NCBI GenBank assembly: GCA_025526915.1
Contig: JAHLKH010000041.1
Coordinates: forward strand, 62,001 to 126,000
Length of the DNA stretch: 64,000 nucleotides
DNA from: Entophlyctis helioformis
Lineage: Eukaryota > Chytridiomycota > Chytridiomycetes > Chytridiales > Chytriomycetaceae
Reading direction: 5' to 3'
Positions 6,748 through 39,319 of this stretch are shown here, piece by piece. The notes under the pieces were generated by a model. That model saw only the letters and a list, made by a program, of their open reading frames with translations, was not told the DNA's origin and made no database searches. Every line of letters starts with the position of its first letter. Positions within the stretch are counted from its first letter, which is position 1. A program made the position numbers and the translations under genes.

Positions 6748-9508
6748 TCAGTAGCGCGGAGGGCTCGCGCTTCTCCGGCGGCTGCCAGGCGCATCGCGAC
6801 GAGCCGCCCATTCGCGGCGATCCTGCTCGTAGTCGCCACGTCCAGCACCGCCACTCGCACCAGCCGCATCAGCCGATCCTGTCGCGCCACCAGTCGATCC
6901 ACCGCGACGGTCATCGCGGTCAAACCGCCGTCCACGGTCATAGGAAGCATCCCAGCCGTCATCGCCGCCACCAGCACGGTCCTGCGAGGAGCCAGACGCA
7001 GGATTCTGCTGCATCATTGGGAACGACATGAATGCCTTTTGCATCTGCTCTTGCGTCATGTCAGGACGCCAGAAGGGGGCAGGAGCGCCGCTGCTCGAGC
7101 CGCCACCTTCGCCGTACATGGGCATACCCATGGGGTGCGCGTACGGATAGTGCCCGTACGGGGGCATGGAGCCAAACGGACTCAGGTCACGACGGCCACT
7201 GGCGCTGCCCTCGCGGCGGTAACGGTCATCGGGACGACGGTCGTAGTCGCGGTCGTCCATGCGACGCATGTCGTAGCGGCGGTCGTCACGCGGATCAGGG
7301 CCACCCCATCGACGGTCATCACGCGGGTCGTAGCGGTCTCGCTCACGGCTGCGCTCGCGGTAGCGATCGCCGCGTCCAGAGCGGTCAATGGGAGAGAAGC
7401 GAGACCGCTCGGCCATGCGGTCAGGACGGTCGTACCGGTCATAACGATCATAGCGGTCAAAGCGGTCGGAGCGTCCACGGTCGCGGTAGTCACGGTCCCG
7501 GTCAATGAAACGATCGGCTCCGCGGTCGCGAGGGTCAGGTTGCGCAGAGTAGGACGACGCACGAGTGGGCCTGCCCGTGACGGCCTTGCTCGAGGGGTCG
7601 GCAATGTCAATGCGAACCTGGATAGCGAGCGACAGGGCAGGGGCAGGATAAGCAACCTGGCAGAGCGTGATCGCTGATGGTGCGAGCAAGCCGTTACCTT
7701 GCGACCGCAAACAGTAATGTTGCCGCCAGTAGCGCGAAGAGCAGTCTTGACGCTCTCCATGTCCGCAAAGCGCACATAACCAAACTTGCGCGACTCCTTG
7801 GTCTCCTGGTCGCGGATAATGTCTGCACTGTGCACAGCACCGTACTCGGAGCAGGCCTTGATGACATCCTCTTCAGTGGCTTCGGGAGGCAGACCGCCAA
7901 TGAAGATGCGGCCAGTCTTGGCTTCTTCCTCACTGGATAGGGCACGGCGCAGGCAGACCTGTTGGGAGGGAGCAGCACCCATGCCACGGCAAGGCGCAGT
8001 CGATGGTCGGATGTTGCGGCAAGCATGCAGCAGGTGCAGATGATGGTGCAGATGATGGTGATGGTGCAGTTAAGTTGTAAGCGGAGATGAACGCGCAGTC
8101 GAGGCGAGTGATATGGCAGTGGCAGTTGTCGCGGTGGTGTGGTGGCGGTGATGGCGGTGACCAAAAGGGGGAATCGCAGATGTGGCCCGCCGGACAGCCG
8201 GAGATCCAGGCATCCAGACACGCAGTTTGGGGTCGAGTGCAAATGGGGGGCAGCCATGGCCAAGAGTATGCGAAACACCCAGAGCAAGCCGCAAGCAGCC
8301 GTAGATGCATCCCAACCGAGATCCATCAGCGAAAGTCCATGCTGGAGCATACAGTTGGCAGCGTCTGCTCTGGCTGGTGCTGCCTTTGCTTCTGCTTCTG
8401 CTTCTGCAACGGTTTCGGCTTCGGCTTCTGCTGCGCACACGGCGGAGGGGGGAAAGTGGTGGATGCAGCTCGGGCAGCTCGGGCAGCCAGGGCAGCCAGG
8501 GCAACTAGAGCAACTAGAGCAGCTGGAGCAGCCGAAGCAGCCAGGGCAGCAGGGCGGATGCTGCCATTTCAAGCGACAGGAATAGCAATGGAGTGGGTGC
8601 GACCAAGCGAAGGTGATGCTCTTGCCTGCTTTCCGTCAATGATGTGCGCCTGGCCCAGGATGGCGGCTGAGGTCGACTCGTCTGCAACGCTAAGGAATGC
8701 GAAGCCACGCGAACGGCCGTCGCGAGTGCGGCCAACGCGGCAGTCGATGATGGTGCCAAAGGTCTTGAAGTAGTCTCGGAGCATTGCTGCGGGTAGTTTA
8801 GATGGTGGGTGTTGAGCATGGAGGGCGTCAGCGATCGTGCTTGCGACGGCAGAGGCTGGACGGTCCGGGGGCAGCAGGGCCGCTTACCGTCGGTCGTTGC
8901 GTTGGTCAGGGAGCCTGCAAAGAGCTGGATGCTGTTGAAGGACGGAGCAGGTCAGATCGGCCGAGGAGGCAAGGGCAGCCAGGCAAGGGCAGCCAGGCAA
9001 GGGCAGACGACACGCACTCTTTGGAGCCGGCCGAGCCAGAGCCCGACGCAGCAGGCGGTCTCGATGACGAGGTGCCAGGCTCTGTCTTGTAGGAGGCCCC
9101 GCGGCCATTGCCCGCAGCGTCGGCAGCGCTGCCGTTTCCGGCGCCGTGAGCGCCAGCGGTGCCAGAGCCGGTGCCGGCGGCGGCAGCAGTGTCCTGGTCG
9201 CGGTGGTGTCGGAGCTCCCACGAGGCAGCGGGCTGGCCGTAGCCGTCCGAGCCGGCGGCGGCAGCGTGGCCCGAGGCCGACGAGTGGTTGCCGTTGGTGC
9301 CAGCATGTTGCTGCTCGTCGGCTGTGGGCGGCGGAGAGACGGGCGGAGAGACGGGCAAGCGTCAGTTGGCCGGTGATTAGCGCAGCGGCAGACGAGAGGC
9401 AGGCGTGCGAAGCAGGCGTGAGACAGTGGGAAGCGCACCGTTTGCGTCGGGCGAGAGCGCCTCGGGAGCGTCAAAGTCGTTGTCGTCAAACGTCTGCTCG
9501 TAGCTCAT
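6748..9508 (-). CDS. Two-RRM hnRNP/DAZAP1-like RNA-binding protein (copy A)
   Basis: Six exons on the minus strand (9508-9439, 9321-9018, 8931-8888, 8786-8626, 7958-7698, 7617-6748), summing to 569 aa in frame. After an acidic start (MSYEQTFDDND) and a Gly/Ala/Ser-rich stretch, RRM1 has RNP2-like LFAGSLTNAT and RNP1-like RGFAFLSV. RRM2 has RIFIGGLPPEAT and KFGYVRF. The C-terminal third is rich in Arg-Asp and Arg-Tyr pairs (DRFDRYDRYDR) and ends RRRSASPPRY. The tandem RRMs resemble DAZAP1/Hrp1/Musashi-type hnRNPs, which act in mRNA processing, export or translation. The intron between the RRMs (8625-7959) needs a GC donor. It lies head-to-tail behind a second gene of the same type. Confidence 0.85.
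7959..8625 (-). other. GC-AG intron (667 nt) between RRM1 and RRM2 of hnRNP copy A
   Basis: Donor AAGCAG|GCAAGAG and acceptor CAACAG|GTCTGC keep phase 0 and join the end of RRM1 to RRM2; no GT donor nearby keeps both. The intron also contains GGCAGC/GGGCAG-type short repeats on the plus strand around 8465-8555. Confidence 0.65.
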
Positions 9509-23569: not shown

Positions 23570-26500
23570 TCAGACGTATGGCTTGCGGCACCGAGCGCCA
23601 CATGGTGCACCCGTCACAGTCTTGACGACCTTGTCGAGGCTTGATACGGGCAGTCCACCGATTTCGCCACGGGTGTTTCCTTGGCCCGCGCACTCGCTGT
23701 TCGTCACAACAACGCCGTGGATCTCAATCGCCAGGTTAGCCTGGCTGCTCGCGAACCTGACTGCCACAACGCCGCCGTCGTCGCCACGCGCAGCAGCAGC
23801 AGCAGCATTTCGGCCGACCTTTCCACGCGCAGCAGCCACCTTGGCCAACGGCACGCGAGTCGTCTGCATCACGCCAACAGCAGCCGCGTCCAGAGCGTCT
23901 GGCCGAACGACTGGCGCCATGACGTATCGGTTCGACGGCTGCTCGAACCACTGACCGCCGTTCTCCAGCACACGGCTGTCCAGCATGTCCACGCGTACGC
24001 CGTGGCACGGCTGGTCGCCGCTTCCGCTTCCAACGCCAAACACGCTTCCCTGTGGCCATGCCGACGCGCCGCTGGCATGGGCGACCAGCCGCCATGTGAC
24101 CACAAGCACGTCGTTCGCGTGGATGGATGGGACGTGTTGGTACAGGACAAGGGAGCCCGGTCCAGTGGACGAGATGAGCGCGTGCGAGGACGTCTCGGCT
24201 GTCCATGTGGCGGGCGGTGTGTGCACGCTGATCGATGCGCGTGAGCCTGCTTGCAGGGCTACGGACCAACCGGCCAGTCCGCCCGTGAACCGCGGGTTCT
24301 GGATAGCACGTGCCGGGTTGCATGTGGCCGACGCAGCGGACCCATGGGCCGTCTGCGAGTACGCTGCGTCTGTCCATTGATCGTCCGAGCCAGCCTGCTG
24401 CACGTTGTCCGTGTTGTCATCGGCGGCGGTTATCTCGTCAACGACAGTCGTGGCGGCCGTGCGAGCGACTGGCTGGCTTGCGTCGGCCGTGGGGGCTTCG
24501 TCTTGCACAAAGATGCTGCTGAACGACGACCACACCTTGCCGGCAATGTCCATGGCAACGCGCTCCACATCGCTTGTTTCCGTGTCACTTGCATCCGTCT
24601 CGGGGGCCGCGACCAGCACATCGGCCACCGACGGCCACCAAGCCGCCGTGTCCTTGCCTTTGGCTGCGCTCTTCTTACCGGCGCTCGGCTTTTCAGCGGG
24701 TCTGCCAGTCTGGTCGGCAGCTGATGGGTTGATCTCGTCGTCGGCAAGCATGCTCACGACCCCGCGTGTCAGGTACTCCACGGCCGACTTGATGGCGTTG
24801 GCAGCCATGTCCGAGTGCACGCCGCCGTCGGCATCCGCGTCCTCCATCTCGCTTTCAGAGAGAATCGACCACACTGCATCGCCGGCTGTCGACATAAGGG
24901 ACTCGACAACTGTCTTGGCGGATTGGCGTTGTGGACGCGATACACGTCGAGGCGGCGAGACGGGTGGCTTCATGTTGGACTCTCCCATCGACGGATCAGC
25001 CAACAGTGACTTGAGACCATCAAAGATGCTCGTGTAGATGGCCTGAATCTGAGGTGACAACTCGGACGGACCAGAGTCGGGATCCGTCACAAGCACGCTG
25101 TCGATGATCTTGTCGATTGAGATCTTGCTGCCACTCGAGCTGCGCAAGTGCTGTTGGAGCTGCTCAACTACCGTCGGTTCTGCCTTGGATGGCTTGTCGG
25201 CCGACTCGCCCATCGACGGATCAGCCAACAGTGACTTGAGACCATCAAAGATGCTCGTGTAGATGGCCTGAATCTGAGGTGACAACTCGGACGGGCCAGA
25301 GTCGGGATCCGTCACAAACACGCTGTCGATGATCTTGTCGATTGAGATCTTGCTGCCACTCGAGCTGCGCAAGTGCTGTTGGAGCTGCTCAACCACTGTC
25401 GGTTCTGCCTTGGATGGCTTGTCGGCCGACTCGCCCATCGACGGATCAGCCAGCAGCGACTTGAGACCGTCAAAGATACTCGTGTAAACAGCCTGGATCT
25501 GTGGCGACAACTCGGACGGGCCAGAGTCGGGATCCGTCACAAACACGCTGTCGATGATCTTGTCGACCGAGATCTTGCTGCCACTCGAGCTGCGCAAGTG
25601 CTGTTGGAGCTGCTCAACCACTGTCGGTTCTGCCTTGGATGGCTTGCCGGCCGACTCTCCCATCGACGGATCAGCCAGCAGCGACTTGAGACCATCAAAG
25701 ATGCTCGTGTAAACAGCCTGGATCTGAGGCGATAACTCGGACGGGCCAGAGTCGGGATCCGTCACAAACACGCTGTCGATGATCTTGTCAACCGAGATCT
25801 TTCTGGCATCTGGGTCGTTCAACAACTGCTCAACAAACGACTGCGTGTTGGTCGGGCTGCGCGACTTGACGCTTGGCTTGGCAGCATTGTCGTCATCAGC
25901 CACGAGAACGTTGTCCTTGATGAGAGACCAGAGCGAGGCGATGGGACGCATTATGATTTCAGGGTGATCGTCCTTGGTTGTCTTTGCATCGGGGTCCTCG
26001 ACCAGTATGCTCGCAAACGCTTGCTGCAGAGCCGTGAATGCCTGAATGGCCGCTGCGTCGATGTCAAAGTCGGGGGTTTGGGCGTTGGTCTTTGGGGCCG
26101 ACTGCGGTGTAGCATCTGCGCGACTGCCGCTGCCGCTGCCACTGACAGCCGCCGCCGTTTGCTTTTCGCTCTGCTGTTTCTTTGGGTGTCCTTGCATCGG
26201 CTTTCTGCGGGGCTGGACTTGCGATTCTTGGTCAGGCGCAAGGATGGTTTCGAGCAATGCGCTGAGACGTTTGAGTTGCTCGGTCATGGCCCTTTCGGAC
26301 GCCGACGGCCCATCGCCATCGCTCTGCTCTTCGTCAGGGTCTTGGTTAAGCGCATTGGACGCGAGACGGGACATTGCACTCAGCGTCTGCTTGGCCATCT
26401 GCGAAACAGCGTTGACCTCATCGTCGGCATCATCCGAGACATGCTGCTCACGGCGGTTGGATGACGACAACGAAGGCGAAGGTGGCTTGGACACCGCCAC

Positions 26501-27535
26501 AGGCGGCGACTGGATCTCCTCGTCTGGGTCTGGTACAAGGATGCTCGAGACCAGGCTGGCGATGGATCGAAAGACTTGAGTAGCGGGTTCCTCATTGTCA
26601 TCAGACTGCACGGACTTGCCACCCATGACATTGTGAATGGCGTCAGCGACATCGTCGTCGGCGAGGATGTACGACCAAAAGTTTTTCGAGCTGCCTTCCG
26701 ACGCCTTCTTGCCAGAGGCAGCGTTCGGCTGGGACTGACTGTCGCGTCGAGATTCACGGCTGATGGGAGATGCCTGTTGGCCTTGGGCAGATGAGTCGCT
26801 GTCCGGGGAACTGTCTTGGACAAACAGCTGCTTCATAAAACCACCAAGCAGTGTTTCGGGGGCGTCGCCTTGCTGCTCCTTGGCCGGCTGCTTGGGCTTT
26901 GAGCTGTACTGGTTGCTGCCCGTGCTGGCGACTGGACGCGATGGCGGCGACACAGACGCGGCCGACTTTGTGGGAACAGGCTCGTCGTCCGACTGGGATA
27001 AGAAAAACGACTCGAAGAATGAAGGGCCAGATGGGCTCTTTCCAGACGGCTGGGTCACTGCGGATGCATTCGCTTTTGCTCCGCTTCGAAAGCCCAGGCT
27101 GGACAAGCCCGCCTGCGATCCGATGTAGAGCACGGCTGTATACGCGGGATCATTGGCATACGGGAGCGTTCAGACATGCGAGCGTTTAGTAGGGAGACAC
27201 ACACAGACACAATGCCATGCTGTGGCAGGCTAGTGAAGAGGCAGTAATGATCAGATCTGACTCGCAATGGGAAGCATTTCGCCCATGCATAGATCGCCTC
27301 GGATTGGCATATCCAGGCACCGTCCGCCACGACAGACACGATGGGAGCGCACTGGCAGATACGACACAGCCGCGGGCTGGGGGCACTCACCAACGACAAT
27401 GATGACGAACGCGGCACTGTCGGATATGTTTCCAAACAGACTTGTGGAGGGGCGTTTCTTGCGCGGCAATCCAGCAGATGCTGGCTGTGGAGCGCCTTCA
27501 GCCGCCGCAGCAGGGACACTGGCAGACGACGACAT
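23570..27535 (-). CDS. Unrecognised signal-anchor protein with 75-aa tandem repeats and C-terminal beta-sandwich-like domain
   Basis: Two exons (27535-27391, 27135-23570) give 1,236 aa. Residues ~39-62 form one hydrophobic helix (AAFVIIVVAVLYIGSQAG) after a short basic N-terminus with RKKR, so it is predicted type II (N-in, C-out). The middle ~850 residues are Ser/Asp/Ala-rich and contain many degenerate units of an amphipathic helix followed by [I/V]-[L/F]-V-x-D-P-D (for example ILVPDPDEE, ILVEDPDAK, VFVTDPDSG, VLVADDDNA, IFVQDEAP). Four are near-identical 75-residue copies. The C-terminal ~220 residues begin CNPARAIQNPRFTGGLAGWS, like the start of carbohydrate-binding or galactose-binding-like beta-sandwiches, and contain several Cys, fitting an extracytoplasmic location. 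I do not recognise the family and assign no function. It is head-to-head with the SH3 membrane protein, 138 bases apart. Confidence 0.75.
24977..25801 (-). repeat. Four 225-bp in-frame tandem repeats
   Basis: Units at 25801-25577, 25576-25352, 25351-25127 and 25126-24977 (last one truncated after GES). Each encodes 75 residues beginning KIS[V/I]DKIIDSV[F/L]VTDPDSG and ending LQQHLRSSSGS; copies differ at only a few residues (V/I, F/L, A[G/D]KPSK). The exact 225-bp spacing was checked at the four GATCTT sites. Confidence 0.92.
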
Positions 27536-27673: not shown

Positions 27674-30505
27674 ATGGCGTCGCTCAGCGCAGTTCTCGTT
27701 CTGCTTGCGGGCCTTTCACGCAGTGCACACGCACAGGCCGCCGCACAGTGCTTCCTGCTCACGCGGGACTCGCCCTGCGGCGAAGACTACGGCGGCTTCC
27801 CCATCCAGACGGCGACGTTTGCCAACCAGGCCGAGTTCACGTCGCTGCTGCAGACGGGCATCGCCGACCTCGACAACGTCGCCAAGGCGTTCAACACCAA
27901 CTACGGCTGCTCGGCAGCGACGGTGCGCCCGGCGCTCGACTCGATGCGCTTCCAGGTGTCGCACTCGTGCTCCAACTTTGTTAACGAGGCGCTCAAGGCC
28001 GGGTGCAGGCCGTCGCCGGCGCAGCCCAACAAGAACCCCATCCTGTGCCAGGAGCGATGCGACTTTGCAACGTCGACGCTCATGATGGTGCTGGGCAACG
28101 CCACAGCCTGCCCGCCTGCGTCGGCTGAAATCATGACCAGACGCTCCAACGCCGTCAACCGCTTCGATACGTACTGCAAGGCGATGGGCCCGCAGGGCGT
28201 CAATGCGTGCACCCTCGGCGCTGTCAACGAGCGCGACCTCTGCGGTGAGTGGCAGCAGCAGCAGCTCTCGTTCTCCTCCTGCCTGTCTGTCTGCCTATTT
28301 GTCTGCTTGTCGACGTCGTTTTTGCTGCTGTTGTGGTTGTGCACCAGCGGCCGTTGAAGGTGCACGGCGCCAGCATCCGCAAGCATCCGCCAGTGTTTCA
28401 GGTTGCAGGTGGTGCACGCTGGGCACGCTGCGCAGCCAGCCGCTCGCCAAGGGCAACACATGCACGGGCGGCACCTTCCGCGCACCTTCTGCTGCCGCCA
28501 AGCACCCCGAGCAACCCGGGCACCTGCACAGCTTAGTCGAGGGCGTTGTGGCTGCGCTTCATCCGTGCAACCGGCCCGCTCCCGCAACGCCCTCGTGACC
28601 GCCCGCCTGCCCCTCTGCCCTGCCCTGCCCTGCCCTGCCCTGCTGCTGCTCTTGCCGTGCCTGGTTCGCAGCACACAGCAGAGGCCACGACGAGCACCTG
28701 CAGACACCAGCACTGCGACAGCGACGCAGACAGACGGGGCCATCGATTGGGGCTTGCCTGGCCCCCGCTTTGGCCAAGCGGCCATGTCCCGTTCACTGTC
28801 GCCTGCTCGCCGCTCATTGGCTGGCGCACTCCCTCCCACCTTGTGTCACCCCCCAATTCTTGCCTTTTTGGGACAATGAGCCCGGTGCAGCGACTGCAAC
28901 AGCAAACTGACTTGTGCACCTTGAACAGGCTGGCGCTCGCAGAATGTGGCCATTGCCCAGTGCTCGACCAACTTCAACGACGTGTGCTGCAACAACCTGC
29001 TCGCCAAGTTCGGCATCAAGCGCGCCTCTGACTCGTCCTCGGGCGGCATGTCCACGATCCTGCTTGGCGCCATCGTCGGCGGTGCCATCCTCATCGTCGG
29101 TGCCCTTGCTGGCTTCGGCTTTGTCTACTTCCGCCGCAACAGCAACTCCCGCGTCAAGTCGGACAGACGAGGCAGCCTCGACAATGGCCAGTACAACAGC
29201 TACGGCAGCAACGGCAAGTCGCAGCAGCGTCAGCAGAACAACGAGTACGGCATGTCGACGCCGCCCCACCAGCACAAGACCACGCCAACGTGGAACAATG
29301 TGCACGGCGACCGGCCCACGGGCAGCAACCACTCGTTCGGAAACAACGACACCATCACGCGCAGCGCGCAGCCCAAGAAGCTCGCCCCTGTCGCCGCCTA
29401 TGGCATGTACGATGCCGTCGACACCAGCTCCCCTGCCCCGCAGTCGTCCAACACCAACATCCCCACCACGCCGCTCATTGCCCACACTGCCACCGCGTCG
29501 CTCCTCGCGTCGCCCTCGTCGCCGTCCGGCAGTGGCACGCCCGGCCCTGTTGCCCTGCCGCTTGTCTCTGCCATCCCCGAGGGTGCCAAGCCGATGCACG
29601 TGCTGCACGCGTACGAGCCGTCCCTGCCGGACGAACTGCGCCTGGAAGTCGGCCGCGAGATCATGATGGTGCGTGCCTTTGACGACGGCTGGGCGCTTGG
29701 ATACAACCCCGAGACCTTCCAGCAAGGCGCCTTCCCGCTCGTCTGTGTCGTCGAGGCGGCGCCCCCTGTCCCCGTCGTTCCGGCCTCTGCGGTGTCCCAT
29801 GTGTCGGCGTCGGACGTTGGCGCGTCGTCGGTCCTCACGTCTGGTCCCGTGTCCAGCCTCATGGGCCGCGAGAACCGGTCGTCGGTGCTGTCCGTGTCCC
29901 GCCGCGTGTCGTCGCAGATCATCTCGCAGGCTGACCGCGAGACGGTGAGCAAGCTGATCAACTCTGCCCAGTCGTCGACGGTCGGCGGTGCGAGCGACAA
30001 GTCCAGGCAGATGGCACAACTGGATGTGCAGATGCAGCAGATGGAGCGTGAGCTTGGCATGATGGCTGCCTCGTCGGCGGCGTCTGCGTCCGTCTGCGTC
30101 TGGCTCTGGTGCTGCCGGCCGCACTGCCGAGACGGCTGCCGAGCGTCGTCTCCGTGAGCGCGAGGCCGAGGCTGAGCGTCTTCGGGTCGAGGAGCTTGAG
30201 CGCCAGCGCCGTCGCGAGGAGCGCGAGCGCGACCGTCTTGCCCGCGAACAGGAGCGTCTTCGTCTGGAGCAGGAGCGACTTGACCGCGAGCGCGAGCGTA
30301 TCCAGCGCGAACTGTACGAGCGTCAGCAGCAGGACCGCTACTACGCCTCTGGCGCTGGCGGTGCACAGATGTCCATGAGCCAAGAGTCCCAGAAGAAGCA
30401 GCCCATGGGCCGCTACCTGGCGGACCTGGAGACGGACCTTGATGTGTCTGCGTCTGCACCCGCCACCAAGTCGCCCATTGCGCGCACCCTCGACAATGAT
30501 CTGTA
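27674..30505 (+). CDS. Single-pass membrane protein: signal peptide, Cys-rich ectodomain, TM, SH3, coiled coil
   Basis: Exon 1 27674-28244, a 684-nt intron, then exon 2 from 28929. The N-terminus MASLSAVLVLLAGLSRSAHA is a signal peptide. The ectodomain has about 13 Cys (CFLLTRDSPCGED...CSAATV...SCSNF...GCRP...CQERCDF...NDVCCNNL). One TM helix follows at ~29052-29130 (STILLGAIVGGAILIVGALA), then FRRNSNSRVK. The cytoplasmic part has Ser/Asn/Pro-rich sequence, an SH3 domain (MHVLHAYEPSLPDELRLEVG...DDGWALGYN...GAFPLVCV) at ~29596-29752, and a long Arg/Glu coiled coil (ERLRVEELERQRRREERERD). The frame breaks by one base near 30090 in a GCGTCTGCGTCCGTCTGCGTCT tract; the coiled coil and the end (ARTLDNDL) need the shifted frame. 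The layout recalls Fus1-like or sensor-type fungal SH3 membrane proteins; ligand unknown. Confidence 0.8.
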
Positions 30506-30752: not shown

Positions 30753-33700
30753 TCAGTTTTGTGGACGCGGCGCTTGGCGGTATCGGCTTTGCGTTGGTGG
30801 CAGCGGTATGTTGCCAAGAGCCGGTGAGATGGGCGACTGGGTGAGCGGGCTTGGCATGTACGGGTTGGGTGCCTGCTGGTAACGGTTCGTGTTGCTGGAC
30901 GGAGTGGATGCGGACTGCGGCGACAAGGTGCGTGGCAGTCCCGGCGAGGAGTCAGCAAGTGGACTGCCCTGCTGTGCTGGTTGGTTTGCTGGCACCATTC
31001 CAGCGTATGCTGGCGATGACTGCCGAGACGATGCTGCATACTGCTGCTGCTGCTGTTGTTGCTGCTGTTGTTGCTGAGATGCCGGCCGAGTTTGGACGTG
31101 TGGACGCTGCTCATGCACCGTCGTCGACGCGACTTGCGGCTGCTGCTGGCTCTGGAAACTGGCCGACTGCCCAGGTCCATAGGACGGCGATGCTGCCCGT
31201 TGAATAGGCGAGTGCAGTTGCATTGGCTGCGGTGACTGCGGTGAGTCTTTTGCTACGCTTGCTGAGCCTGATGATGTTTTTGACGGGGCATGCGCTGGCG
31301 TGTTCTGGTAGAGTGGTGGTCCAGCCTGCTGCTGCTGCTGCTGCCGCTGGAGATATGGATCTCTTCTCTCCAGTCGCTCCTGCTGAACGCGGCCGTGCTG
31401 GCTCTTGTATGCCTCCACCTGCCGGTTGATGTCGTCTGGAACAGTGGCGCCAATGACTTGCGGGCCAACAGCGGGCGGACCAATGGCAGGCTGGCCAACG
31501 GCAGGCGGACCGCGCGAAGGATGCTGCTGTTGCGGCATGCCTTTCCCAACGGGCAGCGATCGTGGAGGAATGAAATGGGCCTGCTGTGGAGATTGAGCAG
31601 GAAAGCCTTGTGTAGGCTGCTGCCAATTAGGTGGCTGCGAGTACTGCGGCTGAGAAAGTCGCGCCGGGATTGCATGGGTCGTCTGCGGTGACTGCACGAA
31701 TGGCGCGATATTCTGCTGATGGTGTGATGGTGGCTGCGTCCCCATCAGCGACTCTGCAACGGCTAGATAAGGCGCGTCGGAATAGCGTCGCTGCTGCTGC
31801 TGCTGCTGCTGCTGCTCATGGCTTGCTCCTGGTCCATTCATGCCACTGAATCCCGTTAATGTTGCTGCGTGAGTGGGCATATCGCCAGCCTGCCACGAAG
31901 CACGGTTTGTCGCCTGCGGATTGGGCGGGAAAAGATGCACAGCGTCGCCCATACTGCGTGTCTGGTGCGGAAGTGGTGGCGAATTGTCGGATAAACGACT
32001 TGGCGGGGTTTGTGGCACTTGGCCCAGTGGCTTTACAGCCTGGGTCGGCGATGCTTCTGCAGCAACAGGCGCTTTACCACCAGCTGTCGGCGGCTCGTTG
32101 CCCTCCTCCTTGACAGACACTGGATCCAAGGGTGGCTCTTCTCGTGTTGGAGACGCGTTCGCGGCCGATGCGCTGCCCAGACTGCTTGTTCTTGCCTTTG
32201 GGGCAGCAAGGACAGCTGTTGCTGGCAGGTCGAAAGTGGCGGCGGATCTCGGTCTTACTGCCTCTACCACAACATCATCTGCCCTCTCTGTCGCTGCTTG
32301 TGGCGAAGGAGTGGTCGAGCCTGTCTGGGGCGATGCGGCCGGAGACGGTGCTTGCACGGAATGAGCCGCCAGCGGTGGCGGTGTCGGCCTTGCCTCCCTC
32401 AGTGACGGAGAGGATGCATCCGAAGTTGCAGGCGAGTTGTCTGGGTTTGCAATAACAATGGCACGCCGAGTATGAGCCAACCTTGCTGGGATTGGATCTG
32501 GAGAAAAGTCGGCTCGCTGGGCAACGACGGCTGGTGCTGTTGCTGGCGCTGTTAGCGGCGCCGCTTTGACTGGTGGCGACTGTGATTGCTGTTGCTGTTG
32601 CTGTTGCTGCTGGACTGACTGCGTATTCTGGCTGTCCTGGATCGGAGCCAAAGCCGGCTGTGCCTGTTGCGGAGAATCGGCCATTTGCGACGACGACGAC
32701 GACTGCCGCTTGACAGGCTGTCCATACAGAATCCTTGCATTTTGCAAAGTCTGTGCATCCTGGCTCGACTCTGGATGCTGCTTCGCTGGCAATGCAGACT
32801 CCGAGATCGGCTCCTTTGCCAAAACAAGAGAAGTTGGCGCGGTTGGACTGCGACGCGTGATGGCGGCAGCATCTGCCGGTCTGGAGTGGTCGACTGTTGT
32901 GTTGCTCTTGCCGATCATGCTGCTTGCATCTTGACCAGCGGGAGCCTTGCCTGCAGAATCCTGTCGAGCCATGCTCGGCAGTGCAGCGATTGGTGCTTTG
33001 CGCTCGGGGATCGTTTGTGAGGCAAGCTCTTGTTGCTGCGGCTGTGACTGTCCCTGAGTGGGCACGGGGGGTTGCGCTTGCATAAGACCTGGTGATGCGA
33101 CTCCTTGGCCCACAACCTGTTCGGGACTTCCGATGGTTGACGTTGCAGATGTAGATGCAGTTGTAGATTGGGCGGATGGCGATCGTCCAGTTGGGTATGT
33201 TGAAGGTGGTTGCTGCGCAGTAGCCAAAGGCGGCTGGCCGGTTGTCGACGCTGACGATGCCGTGGAGGGTGGAGACGCGAGTGACGAGTATTGCGTTCTT
33301 GGGGCATGCTCTCCCTGTCTCGGAGGGAGGGCTGGCGCAGCAGCAGCAGCAGCGGAAGCATCAGCAGCACGCGCAGCAGCCGCTCTTGCCCGAGCAACCT
33401 CGAGCGCGGCGTCTCTTGCGGCGTCCTGCTTGAGCAGCTCGCTGATGGGTGGAAGCTTGATCTGGCGGGTGACAGTCGACTCGTAACCCAGCTCGCTCAG
33501 GTCGTCACAAAACTGCAACGGCGTGACCAGGTTGGTTGAGCCTGTGTTGAACGATTAGCACGCAAGATTGGAAAGCAAGCGCTGTCCATCAACGCCAGCG
33601 ACGCCACGCACCAATGATGATGTCGCGCTTGTACTGGTGTGAAACCTCGTATGCTGCGCGTAGTTCCGCCTGCGTGATGCCACCGAGCACAAGAACGATG

Positions 33701-36301: not shown

Positions 36302-39215
36302 ATGTCTGCCACGTCTCTCAAGGACATCCTACGCAAGCGTATGTTGCGCCGTGGCCCCAATCTCTTTGCTTGTGCAGCATTGCCCTGTGGAAGCAGCGCT
36401 GCAACGTTCGCACCACACACAACGTATCTGACTCGAGTCAACTCTTGCTTGGAAAACAGGTGTCCTTGAGGACATGGTGCGAGCCGTCCAGCCCGCAAGC
36501 AAGTGGAAGCTGTTGGTCGTCGACGGCAATGCCGCCAAGCTGCTCAACGCCATCTGCAAAAGCCAGGAAATCCTGCAAGAAAACGTCACCGGTCGGCAGC
36601 CGTTTGTTGTTGCATGGCATGTTGTTGCGTCCATGGCTCGCGTCGCATTCTGACAAGATCGATTTTTGCCGCGATTCCGCACCAACAGTCATCGAAGAGC
36701 TCTTTCACAAGCGTCCAGCATTCCCAAACTACGAGGCCATCTACTTTATCACGCCAAACGAGCGGTCCATTGATCGGTTCATCGCCGACTTTAACCAAGA
36801 TAAGCCGTTGTACCTGGCAGCACACATCTACTTTATCTCGTGTACGCTTCATCAAACTCTCACAATGCAAGCCGTCGTTCCCAAAGGGCGAAATGCCAGT
36901 GACTAACCGCCGAACTCTTTCATCTAGCCCTCGAAGATGCGCTGTTTGACAGAATCAAAAAGTCTGGCACGACAAAGTTTATCAAGAACCTCAAGGAGAT
37001 GAACATTGACTTTATCGGTTTGGAGCCACAAGTGTTCACCGTCGATCTCCCTCTTGCTCCCTTCACCATCTACAATCCCACATCGGCAGCTGCGCAGTCA
37101 GCAGACCTGCAGCGTGCAGCAAAGAGAGTGAGTGGTGTTTAATGGCATCGTTCGCCATGCACATCTGACGACCAAGCATATCCGCAGATCCTGTCGCTCC
37201 TCATCACCATTGGCGAGTGCCCGTTTATCCGATACTACGATCCAAGTGGCAACGGCAACGGCCCCTGTGCCAAGCTAGCGCTTCTCTTGCAGAACGAGCT
37301 GGATATGCTGTGCAAGGTCGATCAGGAGTTTCCGCCGCCGTCCGAGTACCGCCGTGCGGTGCTTGTGATCACCGACCGCTCATTCGATATGATGGCGCCG
37401 TTGCTGCACGAGTTTACATACCAGGCCATGATGTCCGATCTGCTCATTGGCGACGGAAAGTACGCTGCCATGTTGCCATGAGATTGCAATGCGAGTCATG
37501 GGCGACCACACTCACTTCCAATACCTGCACTCCACAGAGATGTCAGCTCGCCCAGCTACGCCAGTCTCGACGAGAATGATCCCATTTGGGTAAGCTCGCT
37601 AGCCTTGACTGCCCGACTGACGCCTGCCGACTGCATAGGCTGACATTCGCCGACGATGCACACGATGACAGAATCTCATCAAGCACTGGCATTTTGCCGA
37701 AGCTGTCGAGTACATCCGCGAGTCATTTACCAAGTTCTTGTCAGAGAATAAGGCTGCAGCCAACGCGCTTGGCCAGGCTGACGACAAGTACGTTTTGGCA
37801 TTCGTGTCTTGCGGTGTGCTTCGTTCAGACATCATTCACACCATGCTCTGCCAGACCCAAGGGCATCGACAGTCTGAAGCAGATGAAGGACACGCTGAGC
37901 TCACTGCCTCAGTTCCAGGAGATGAAGAGCAAGGTCTGCTGGCTATGGCGTCATGGATCAGACGCAAACAGCTGCCACTGACCGTGGATGGATACATCCC
38001 AGTTCTCTGTCCACATCAACATTTGCCAGGAATGCAAGTCGCTGTTTGAAAAACGGCGGCTTGACATTGTGGCTGGCGTGCAGCAGGTCGGTATCCAGAC
38101 ATCTCCTGTGTATGTGCCTAGCCAATTCTTCTGCCATTGGACTCTGACACGCACACACACTCTCTCGGAACAGGATCTTGCCACAGGAGAAACCACAGAC
38201 GGACGCGTACCAAAGAACGCCATTCTCGATTTGATTCCAGTTCTGGACAACAAGAACGGAACGTGAGTTGGATGCATGCATCAACATGCATCAAAGCCAG
38301 CACGCTAACGCCGGGGTTTCATGCAGGCCATACGACAAACTGCGCACGCTGATCATCTACATCATTGCCATGGAGGGCATCCAAGACAATGAGCGCCGTC
38401 GCTTGTTGGAGACGGCCAAGCTGTCAATCGAAGACTCGCAGGCCATCACGAATCTTGCCTACTATGGCATTCAGCTCAGTCCTGGACAGGCTTCTCAGGG
38501 CAGAAGCAAGGCCAAAGACAAGGTGGGCAGCGAGCGTCTACGTCCACGTTGGCACGAGCCGTGATTCGCCGAGAAATGGGCTGCTGACATCCTGCCGACA
38601 TGCGTCTATCGCGTCTTGCAGGATCGATACACGTACTGGGGAAGCCACAAGCTCGACAAGAAGCGCAAAAAGAACAAGGCCAGCAACGATCTTCCATACG
38701 ACCTCAGCCGATATGTACCGCTCGTCAAGCGCATCATGGAGGACCAGATCACCAACACGCTGTCTCGAGAGGTCTTTCCGTGGGTGAACGAGCCTGCCCC
38801 AGACCAGCTCGGCATCACTACAGCCGCACCCAAGATGTTCCGCTTCACGTCCAACGGCCTGGTGGCACCGGACCCCAACTTCCCGCACTCGCTGCGCACA
38901 ACACGTGCGTCGTGGGTCAACCGTCGCCCAGCCAAGGGCCAGACCAAGTCAGGCGGCAACGAGAGCAGCGCAGGCGGCGGCGGTGGCCAAGAGAAGCAAG
39001 ACCTGCGTCGCAACGGATCGCGCATTATTGTGTTCAGTCTGGGCGGGCTCACCCATTCAGAGATGCGGACAGCGTACGAAGTCGCAAAGGACGCGCAACG
39101 CGACGTGATTATTGGATCGACATATGTTTACAACTCGTCGCAGTTTCTGGACATCCTCAAGCATCTGCACAAGGGGATGCGAGCCAAACACCCCTTGGCG
39201 CCATTTATGGCATGA
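36302..39215 (+). CDS. SEC1: SEC1/Munc18-1-like exocytic SM protein
   Basis: Multi-exon SM protein; the first exons are 36302-36338, 36460-36591, 36689-36839 and 36928-37127. Landmarks: MSATSLKDILRKR start, KWKLLVVDGNAAKLL, YEAIYFITPNERSIDRFI, MNIDFIGLEPQVF, CPFIRYYDPSGNG, AVLVITDRSFDMMAPLLHEFTYQ, DENDPIWNLIKHWHFAE, PYDKLRTLIIYIIAMEGI, YVPLVKRIMEDQITN, RIIVFSLGGLTHSEMRTAYEV and DVIIGSTYVYN. This matches SEC1/STXBP1 over its whole length (~650 aa), so a role with the plasma-membrane syntaxin in exocytosis is well supported. As read it stops at 39215 (LAPFMA), but the next frame continues to 39319 as a Lys-rich tail ending KSIFSKKK, suggesting a one-base indel near 39200. Confidence 0.9.
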
Positions 39216-39319
39216 AGGCAGCAGCTTCTGCAGCAGTTGACGACGGTGCTGATGCAAAGGCCGATGCGGCGTCAGTCAAGGAAAAGGAAAAGAAGAGCAT
39301 CTTTTCCAAAAAGAAATAG

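Follow-up and report, generated by a model that had tools for sequence, protein, structure and literature searches.

Gene structure of the locus

The analyzed window is a stretch of 64,000 nucleotides from the genome of Entophlyctis helioformis, and all coordinates below are positions within it. On its minus strand we predicted an eight-exon gene (35962-30753, 1543 codons, with splicing modelled at GT-AG sites) for a Sec1/Munc18 (SM) protein that carries a long low-complexity tail. Its introns range from 63 to 108 nt and are all of the GT-AG type; seven exons lie upstream of the last one. A second Sec1-like gene is arranged head-to-head with the tailed gene and begins 339 bp from its ATG.

35962-35923, 35829-35698, 35589-35350, 35277-34823, 34759-34413, 34333-34165, 34071-33612 and 33541-30753, minus strand: exons of the tailed SM gene (GT-AG model)
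30753-33541, minus strand: last exon, from the final part of the SM fold through the complete tail to the stop codon (open frame)
36302-39215, plus strand: Sec1-like exocytic SM gene, the head-to-head neighbour, 667 aa as modelled (gene model)

The initial annotation had described an SM protein that continues in the same exon into a long low-complexity tail, and this description was borne out both by the frame 33554-30753 on the minus strand, which contains 933 open codons, and by the Sec1 domain discussed below. The open frame of the last exon is more than a product of chance: its longest stop-free run covers 928 codons, compared with a median of 240 and a maximum of 588 in 1000 first-order Markov sequences built from the same exon. 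A frame test based on synonymous codons was flat over the tail (means of 0.004, 0.034 and 0.017 across the three frames), compared with a mean of 0.142 for the SM body in its own frame. The last intron had been placed at 33541-33612, where an intron does lie, its exact limits being 33611-33542. A separate downstream gene for the tail is ruled out, since the tail shares its open frame and its exon with the SM body and since the gene models of two other chytrids, Polyrhizophydium stewartii and Chytriomyces hyalinus, join body and tail in the same manner.

Elsewhere in the window, an open frame of 1199 aa (23570-27169, minus strand), for which no Pfam match was obtained, contains a 225-bp tandem repeat in 3.7 copies (24978-25805, 95% matches).

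SM body and exocytic paralogues

The Pfam family Sec1 (PF00995) matches residues 30-627 of the predicted protein over profile positions 1-574 of 575 (E-value 1.9e-80), so that the complete Sec1 domain of the SM family is present. The body gave its top matches to Munc18-2 (178.7 bits) and Munc18-1 (160 bits), versus 74, 56 and 23 bits to the Sly1, Vps45 and Vps33 classes, respectively, and judging from these similarities the tailed protein belongs to the exocytic (Sec1/Munc18) class. Munc18-1 and Munc18-2 (STXBP1/2; PDB 6lpc and 4cca) thus represent the closest solved class by sequence; however, their chains comprise about 600 residues and lack a long tail, in contrast to the chytrid protein.

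Two further genes of the exocytic class were found in the genome. The neighbouring Sec1-like protein matches Munc18-1 at 313 bits, while a 512-residue piece of the other, located on contig C111, matches squid Sec1 at 250 bits and Munc18-1 at 243 bits. These two proteins score 489 bits against each other, versus 216 bits (neighbour) and 178 bits (C111) against the tailed body. An ordinary fungal Sec1 was rejected as the identity of the tailed protein, which reaches 179 bits at best versus 313 for the neighbour and 250 for the C111 gene; we predict instead that it is a divergent third exocytic-class SM protein of E. helioformis. Other SM loci, represented by pieces, correspond to Vps45 (284 bits), Sly1 (149 bits) and Vps33 (86 bits), and one more place on contig C13 scores below the Sec1 family cut-off. 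For comparison, four SM proteins are described for Saccharomyces cerevisiae, and the same number is known from Verticillium dahliae (PMC3714278).

Both additional exocytic genes have ends that deserve separate mention. The modelled frame of the neighbour stops at 39215, and an overlapping frame continues to a lysine-rich end (KEKEKKSIFSKKK; window 39100-39310, plus strand) of the kind expected for a fungal Sec1, which could stem from a frameshift or from a slip in the assembly. The C111 gene (L009 423-1145, minus strand) has an extension rich in Arg, Gly, Asp and Pro, and an end KEKKGWFGF that lies in a frame other than that of the body. As for SNAREs, the Pfam syntaxin family gave a single match, below its cut-off. 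Two SNARE loci on contigs C71 (113646) and C234 (13114) have equal scores and, in the stretch displayed, near-identical surroundings, and are perhaps two alleles that were assembled apart.

Tailed relatives in other chytrids

Two proteins emerged from a protein search in which residues 1-660 were scored. One, P0001, is the NCBI Sec1-like protein of E. helioformis and a model of the same tailed gene; the other is P0002 of P. stewartii, a protein of 1469 aa annotated as 'syntaxin binding protein 1', which is 50% identical over 96% of residues 1-660 and carries a tail of 829 residues. When an alignment of four SM bodies served as the query (cut-off 1e-20), P0004 of C. hyalinus was also found, with 1328 aa and a tail of 638 residues; a body-only protein search gave one distant match of 507 aa. 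The proposal to look for the same extension in related fungi was therefore rewarded in the predicted proteins of two species. In each of the three protein searches, scoring was confined to the 7994-7998 candidates with the most words in common, and similar tails may therefore also occur elsewhere in fungi. In the NCBI taxonomy, E. helioformis and C. hyalinus are assigned to Chytridiales and P. stewartii to Rhizophydiales. In two publications, E. helioformis is treated among Rhizophydiales chytrids (PMC10470594) and is used, together with P. stewartii, as a close relative of Batrachochytrium (PMC11797018).

In a tree of eight SM bodies or fragments, the three tailed proteins of E. helioformis, P. 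stewartii and C. hyalinus formed one clade with support of 100/97, and the clade was recovered with support of 95/96 in a six-row tree built without the outgroup fragments. The metagenomic protein P0005, which scores 15-53 bits to the other bodies, was excluded. Constraining C. hyalinus to group with the two Sec1 paralogues was rejected (p 0.013), as was placing E. helioformis and P. stewartii with these paralogues (p 0.011). The tailed clade has long branches, that of C. hyalinus among them. With few rows and this long C. hyalinus branch, the evidence for a single tailed lineage is good, not final.

The C. hyalinus protein has two further features of note. Residues 974-999 of its tail match the CUE family at 20 bits, below the Pfam cut-off of 21.1, and may point either to an element that binds ubiquitin or to a fused model; the gene model of this species as a whole could be a fusion.

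Composition and predicted disorder of the tail

The tail comprises 889 residues from residue 655 onward and includes 136 Ala, 132 Pro, 126 Gln and 108 Ser. Its initial description as a Gln/Pro/Ser/Ala sequence is correct in that all four residues are abundant, but Gln is slightly less frequent than Ala and Pro. The Gln residues include four runs, with lengths of 9, 8, 6 and 12.

31041-31076, minus strand: longest Gln run (12), residues 1437-1448
32586-32612, 31791-31814 and 31326-31343, minus strand: other Gln runs

The suggested check by disorder prediction gave the anticipated answer. When the last exon alone was modelled by AlphaFold2 with a three-row alignment, pLDDT was below 50 in 803 of the 928 residues, and the tail is accordingly predicted to be disordered. 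Three peaks stand out past the SM fold, namely helices at residues 647-681 and 1317-1340 and a weak helix over the longest Gln run (pLDDT blocks of 56 and 52).

A prion-like Q/N-rich domain is one with at least 30 Gln and Asn residues in a stretch of 80. The maximum per 80 residues is 26 in the E. helioformis protein and thus falls short of this number; it is 25 in P. stewartii and 38 in C. hyalinus. P. stewartii has no Gln run of four or more, and E. helioformis has few aromatic residues (1.7% Tyr, 0.9% Phe and 0.2% Trp). Gln runs are moreover ordinary in this genome, in which a pattern of eight CAR codons has 6711 overlapping matches, versus 830 for the reversed pattern. By its content of Gln and Asn, the term 'prion-like', which the initial annotation had applied to the tail, is not upheld.

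Conserved islands in the tail

On comparison of their sequences, three islands are common to the E. helioformis and P. stewartii tails: the base, the second helix and the C-terminal end. The corresponding elements of the E. helioformis gene are as follows.

33342-33446, minus strand: basal helix after the SM fold, residues 647-681 (AlphaFold2, ten-residue pLDDT blocks 81-97)
33318-33335, minus strand: PALPPR peptide, residues 684-689, aligned with PPLPPR of P. stewartii
31356-31439, minus strand: second conserved helix, YKxQxGRxxQxxLxRxDP, residues 1316-1343 (AlphaFold2 helix 1317-1340)
30858-30884, minus strand: first C-terminal peptide RYQQAPNPY, residues 1501-1509, identical in P. stewartii
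30762-30785, minus strand: second C-terminal peptide RYRQAPRP, residues 1534-1541, which makes the double [RK]Y[QR]QAP

At the base, the helix starts with PxSEL in both species according to the alignment. The PALPPR peptide resembles an SH3 ligand. Peptides of the LPPR type occur twice in the E. helioformis tail, four times in that of P. stewartii and not at all in that of C. hyalinus, counts that were reached by 50, 1 and 2000 of 2000 shuffles, respectively. Matches to SH3-type consensus sequences were not enriched in the E. helioformis tail, either for class I (2 matches, reached in 847 of 2000 shuffles) or for class II (1 match against a shuffle mean of 1.34, reached in 1481 of 2000). Class II matches were enriched in P. 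stewartii, with 10 matches against a shuffle mean of 2.41 and none of 2000 shuffles reaching this number; they were not enriched in C. hyalinus (1 match, shuffle mean 0.4, 659 of 2000 shuffles).

The convergent neighbour of the tailed gene (window 28925-30157, plus strand) contains an SH3-like stretch that matches PF14604 at 19.9 bits, below the cut-off of 30. Its position beside a gene for a tail with PPR peptides may be a chance adjacency.

The second helix, with pLDDT blocks of 80, 87 and 68, covers a conserved 18-residue segment that has a single match in the whole genome. In an ungapped comparison of E. helioformis with P. stewartii, from which the basal helix and the C-terminal peptides were omitted and in which windows dominated by one residue were masked, it scored 58, a value reached by none of 500 block shuffles (maximum 57). 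At the C-terminal end, the peptide RYQQAPNPY carries 34.9 bits of information, versus 23.8 bits for the best of 40 shuffles, and a degenerate version of its pattern occurs at one place in the genome. The double [RK]Y[QR]QAP motif closes both the E. helioformis and the P. stewartii protein, an arrangement found in none of 2000 shuffles of each.

C. hyalinus has neither a C-terminal RY(Q/R)QAP peptide nor an LPPR peptide, and no 6-mer is common to its tail and that of E. helioformis. A 7-mer common to the P. stewartii and C. hyalinus tails (22.3 bits) lies within the control range (maximum of 40 shuffles, 22.6). For the tails of E. helioformis and P. stewartii, gapped scans in windows of 45 residues scored no higher than their controls (76 versus a 95% control value of 76 and a maximum of 85), and the same held for P. 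stewartii and C. hyalinus (66 versus a control of 77). The E. helioformis and C. hyalinus pair scored 76 versus a 95% value of 70 and a maximum of 78, by way of poly-Q.

Comparison with the public gene model

The NCBI model P0001 has 1239 aa and agrees with our model through residue 890, after which its end differs. Two stretches account for the comparison.

32325-32714, minus strand: 390 nt in frame, residues 891-1020, absent from P0001 (model comparison)
31436-31457, minus strand: 22 nt absent from P0001, which moves its end into another frame (model comparison)

The in-frame cut of 390 nt could reflect a real shorter isoform. As for the second stretch, the introns modelled in the tailed gene and its neighbour, 18 in number, span 60-121 nt, and one of only 22 nt is implausible next to them. 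The second helix and the C-terminal peptides are encoded beyond the 22-nt break, in the frame without the shift, and the fact that the helix and the double peptide are kept in P. stewartii argues that the tail frame is translated to its end. On both grounds, we judged the end of P0001 unlikely to be correct. Of the distal tail, the two parts with the strongest conservation are thus probably missing from the public gene model.

Possible roles of the tail

In our interpretation, to which we give a probability of roughly 0.4, the tail is a flexible tether that holds a SNARE regulator near secretion sites through a few short conserved binding elements. The SM body would act on plasma-membrane SNAREs by binding the plasma-membrane syntaxin (an Sso-like syntaxin locus is present in the genome), the tail islands would dock on partners at secretion sites, and the low-complexity stretches between the islands would serve as spacers whose exact sequence matters little. 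This interpretation draws on the C-terminus of yeast Sec1, which helps to bring Sec1 to the plasma membrane. According to PMC9671497, that C-terminus (aa 670-724) alone localises broadly to the plasma membrane, and loss of the membrane-associating parts of both Sec1 and its partner Mso1 is lethal.

Like yeast Sec1, the chytrid protein combines an exocytic-class SM body with an extension past the fold, here 889 residues from residue 655. The same paper describes fungal Sec1 tails as having a highly positive end and a linker whose length varies among fungi, and asks why such tails, unlike Mso1, are found outside ascomycetes. In contrast to yeast Sec1, the chytrid tail is about 890 residues long, lacks a lysine cluster at its end and belongs to a paralogue in a genome with two more Sec1-like genes. 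Its last 53 residues include four Arg, no Lys and no acidic residue, and the last 50 residues of the P. stewartii protein include one Arg and one Lys. By analogy, the chytrid SM protein would be brought to the membrane by docking on other proteins instead of by a polybasic end. The initial annotation had regarded a prion-like or condensate-forming tail on a SNARE regulator as new; tails on fungal Sec1 have already been published (PMC9671497). A separate exocytic SM paralogue whose tail is longer than its body was not encountered among the matches listed in the literature on SM-protein tails and SM evolution, on disorder and condensates, on Gln-rich SM proteins and on chytrid secretion, and the terms Sec1, SNARE, exocyst, apical body and Spitzenk are all absent from a chytrid atlas (PMC8887899).

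Several results place the tether in doubt. SH3-type matches are not enriched in the E. helioformis tail, the gapped scan against P. stewartii did not rise above shuffles, and C. hyalinus lacks both peptides as well as any 6-mer in common with E. helioformis; in addition, long Gln runs are so common in this genome that much of the tail may be drift. These observations can also be taken to mean that the tail is largely neutral: in a genome where Gln runs abound, low-complexity sequence would have expanded and drifted, and would be tolerated owing to its terminal position on a duplicate SM gene under relaxed constraint, with a function for small parts of it at most. The long branches of the tailed clade point in the same direction. 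We consider this possible, though on the unlikely side, given that the second helix and the double C-terminal peptide have been kept beyond anything seen in their shuffles and that all three proteins of the clade have long tails. That most of the tail is never made, with an mRNA that ends after the SM fold or is spliced as in P0001, appears very improbable. This possibility derives from the different end of the public model, the uninformative codon usage of the tail, the stop that read-through of the last intron meets soon after the SM fold, and the predicted nature of the splicing; against it, body and tail are likewise joined in the P. stewartii model, which has the double peptide at its end too, and the later islands lie past a 22-nt break too short for the introns of this region and in the unshifted frame.

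Active roles other than tethering were also weighed. Self-association of the tail into condensates or prion-like assemblies that gather vesicles would agree with its predicted disorder, with the Gln runs of E. helioformis and C. hyalinus and with the Gln and Asn content of the latter, but the lower content in both E. helioformis and P. stewartii, the lack of Gln runs in P. stewartii and the few aromatic residues of E. helioformis make it improbable. A more specific role is suggested by yeast Sso2, which binds the PH domain of the exocyst subunit Sec3 through paired NPY motifs (PMC9427108). With Sso2 the tailed proteins of E. helioformis and P. stewartii share a short paired terminal peptide, a variable linker, the same pathway and the NPY triplet; the chytrid peptide, however, is placed at the C-terminus of an SM protein rather than at the N-terminus of a syntaxin, and the Tyr of the triplet is found in its first copy only. 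Each of these two proteins contains exactly one NPY, inside the conserved peptide; the E. helioformis genome encodes a Sec3 PH domain, and its Sso-like locus, in which no start codon could be placed, has neither NPY nor NPF in the three forward frames. The match extends over three residues only, and in neither species does the second copy have this Tyr, so we rate the docking of the paired peptide on Sec3 as a long shot, and C. hyalinus has no NPY at all.

An equally slim chance is given to a bolder version of the tether, in which chytrids would have evolved a self-tethering SM protein by adding a disordered arm of 640-890 residues to a Munc18 relative, and in which the paired RYQQAPNPY end of the two Rhizophydiales would plug into the exocyst through Sec3. 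If this were true, one polypeptide would both capture the vesicle site and template SNARE assembly, work that yeast splits between Sec1, Mso1 and the NPY motifs of Sso2. E. helioformis has three SM genes of the exocytic class alone, one of them with a tail longer than its body, and if this tail does localise the protein, it would offer a natural test of how SM proteins reach fusion sites.
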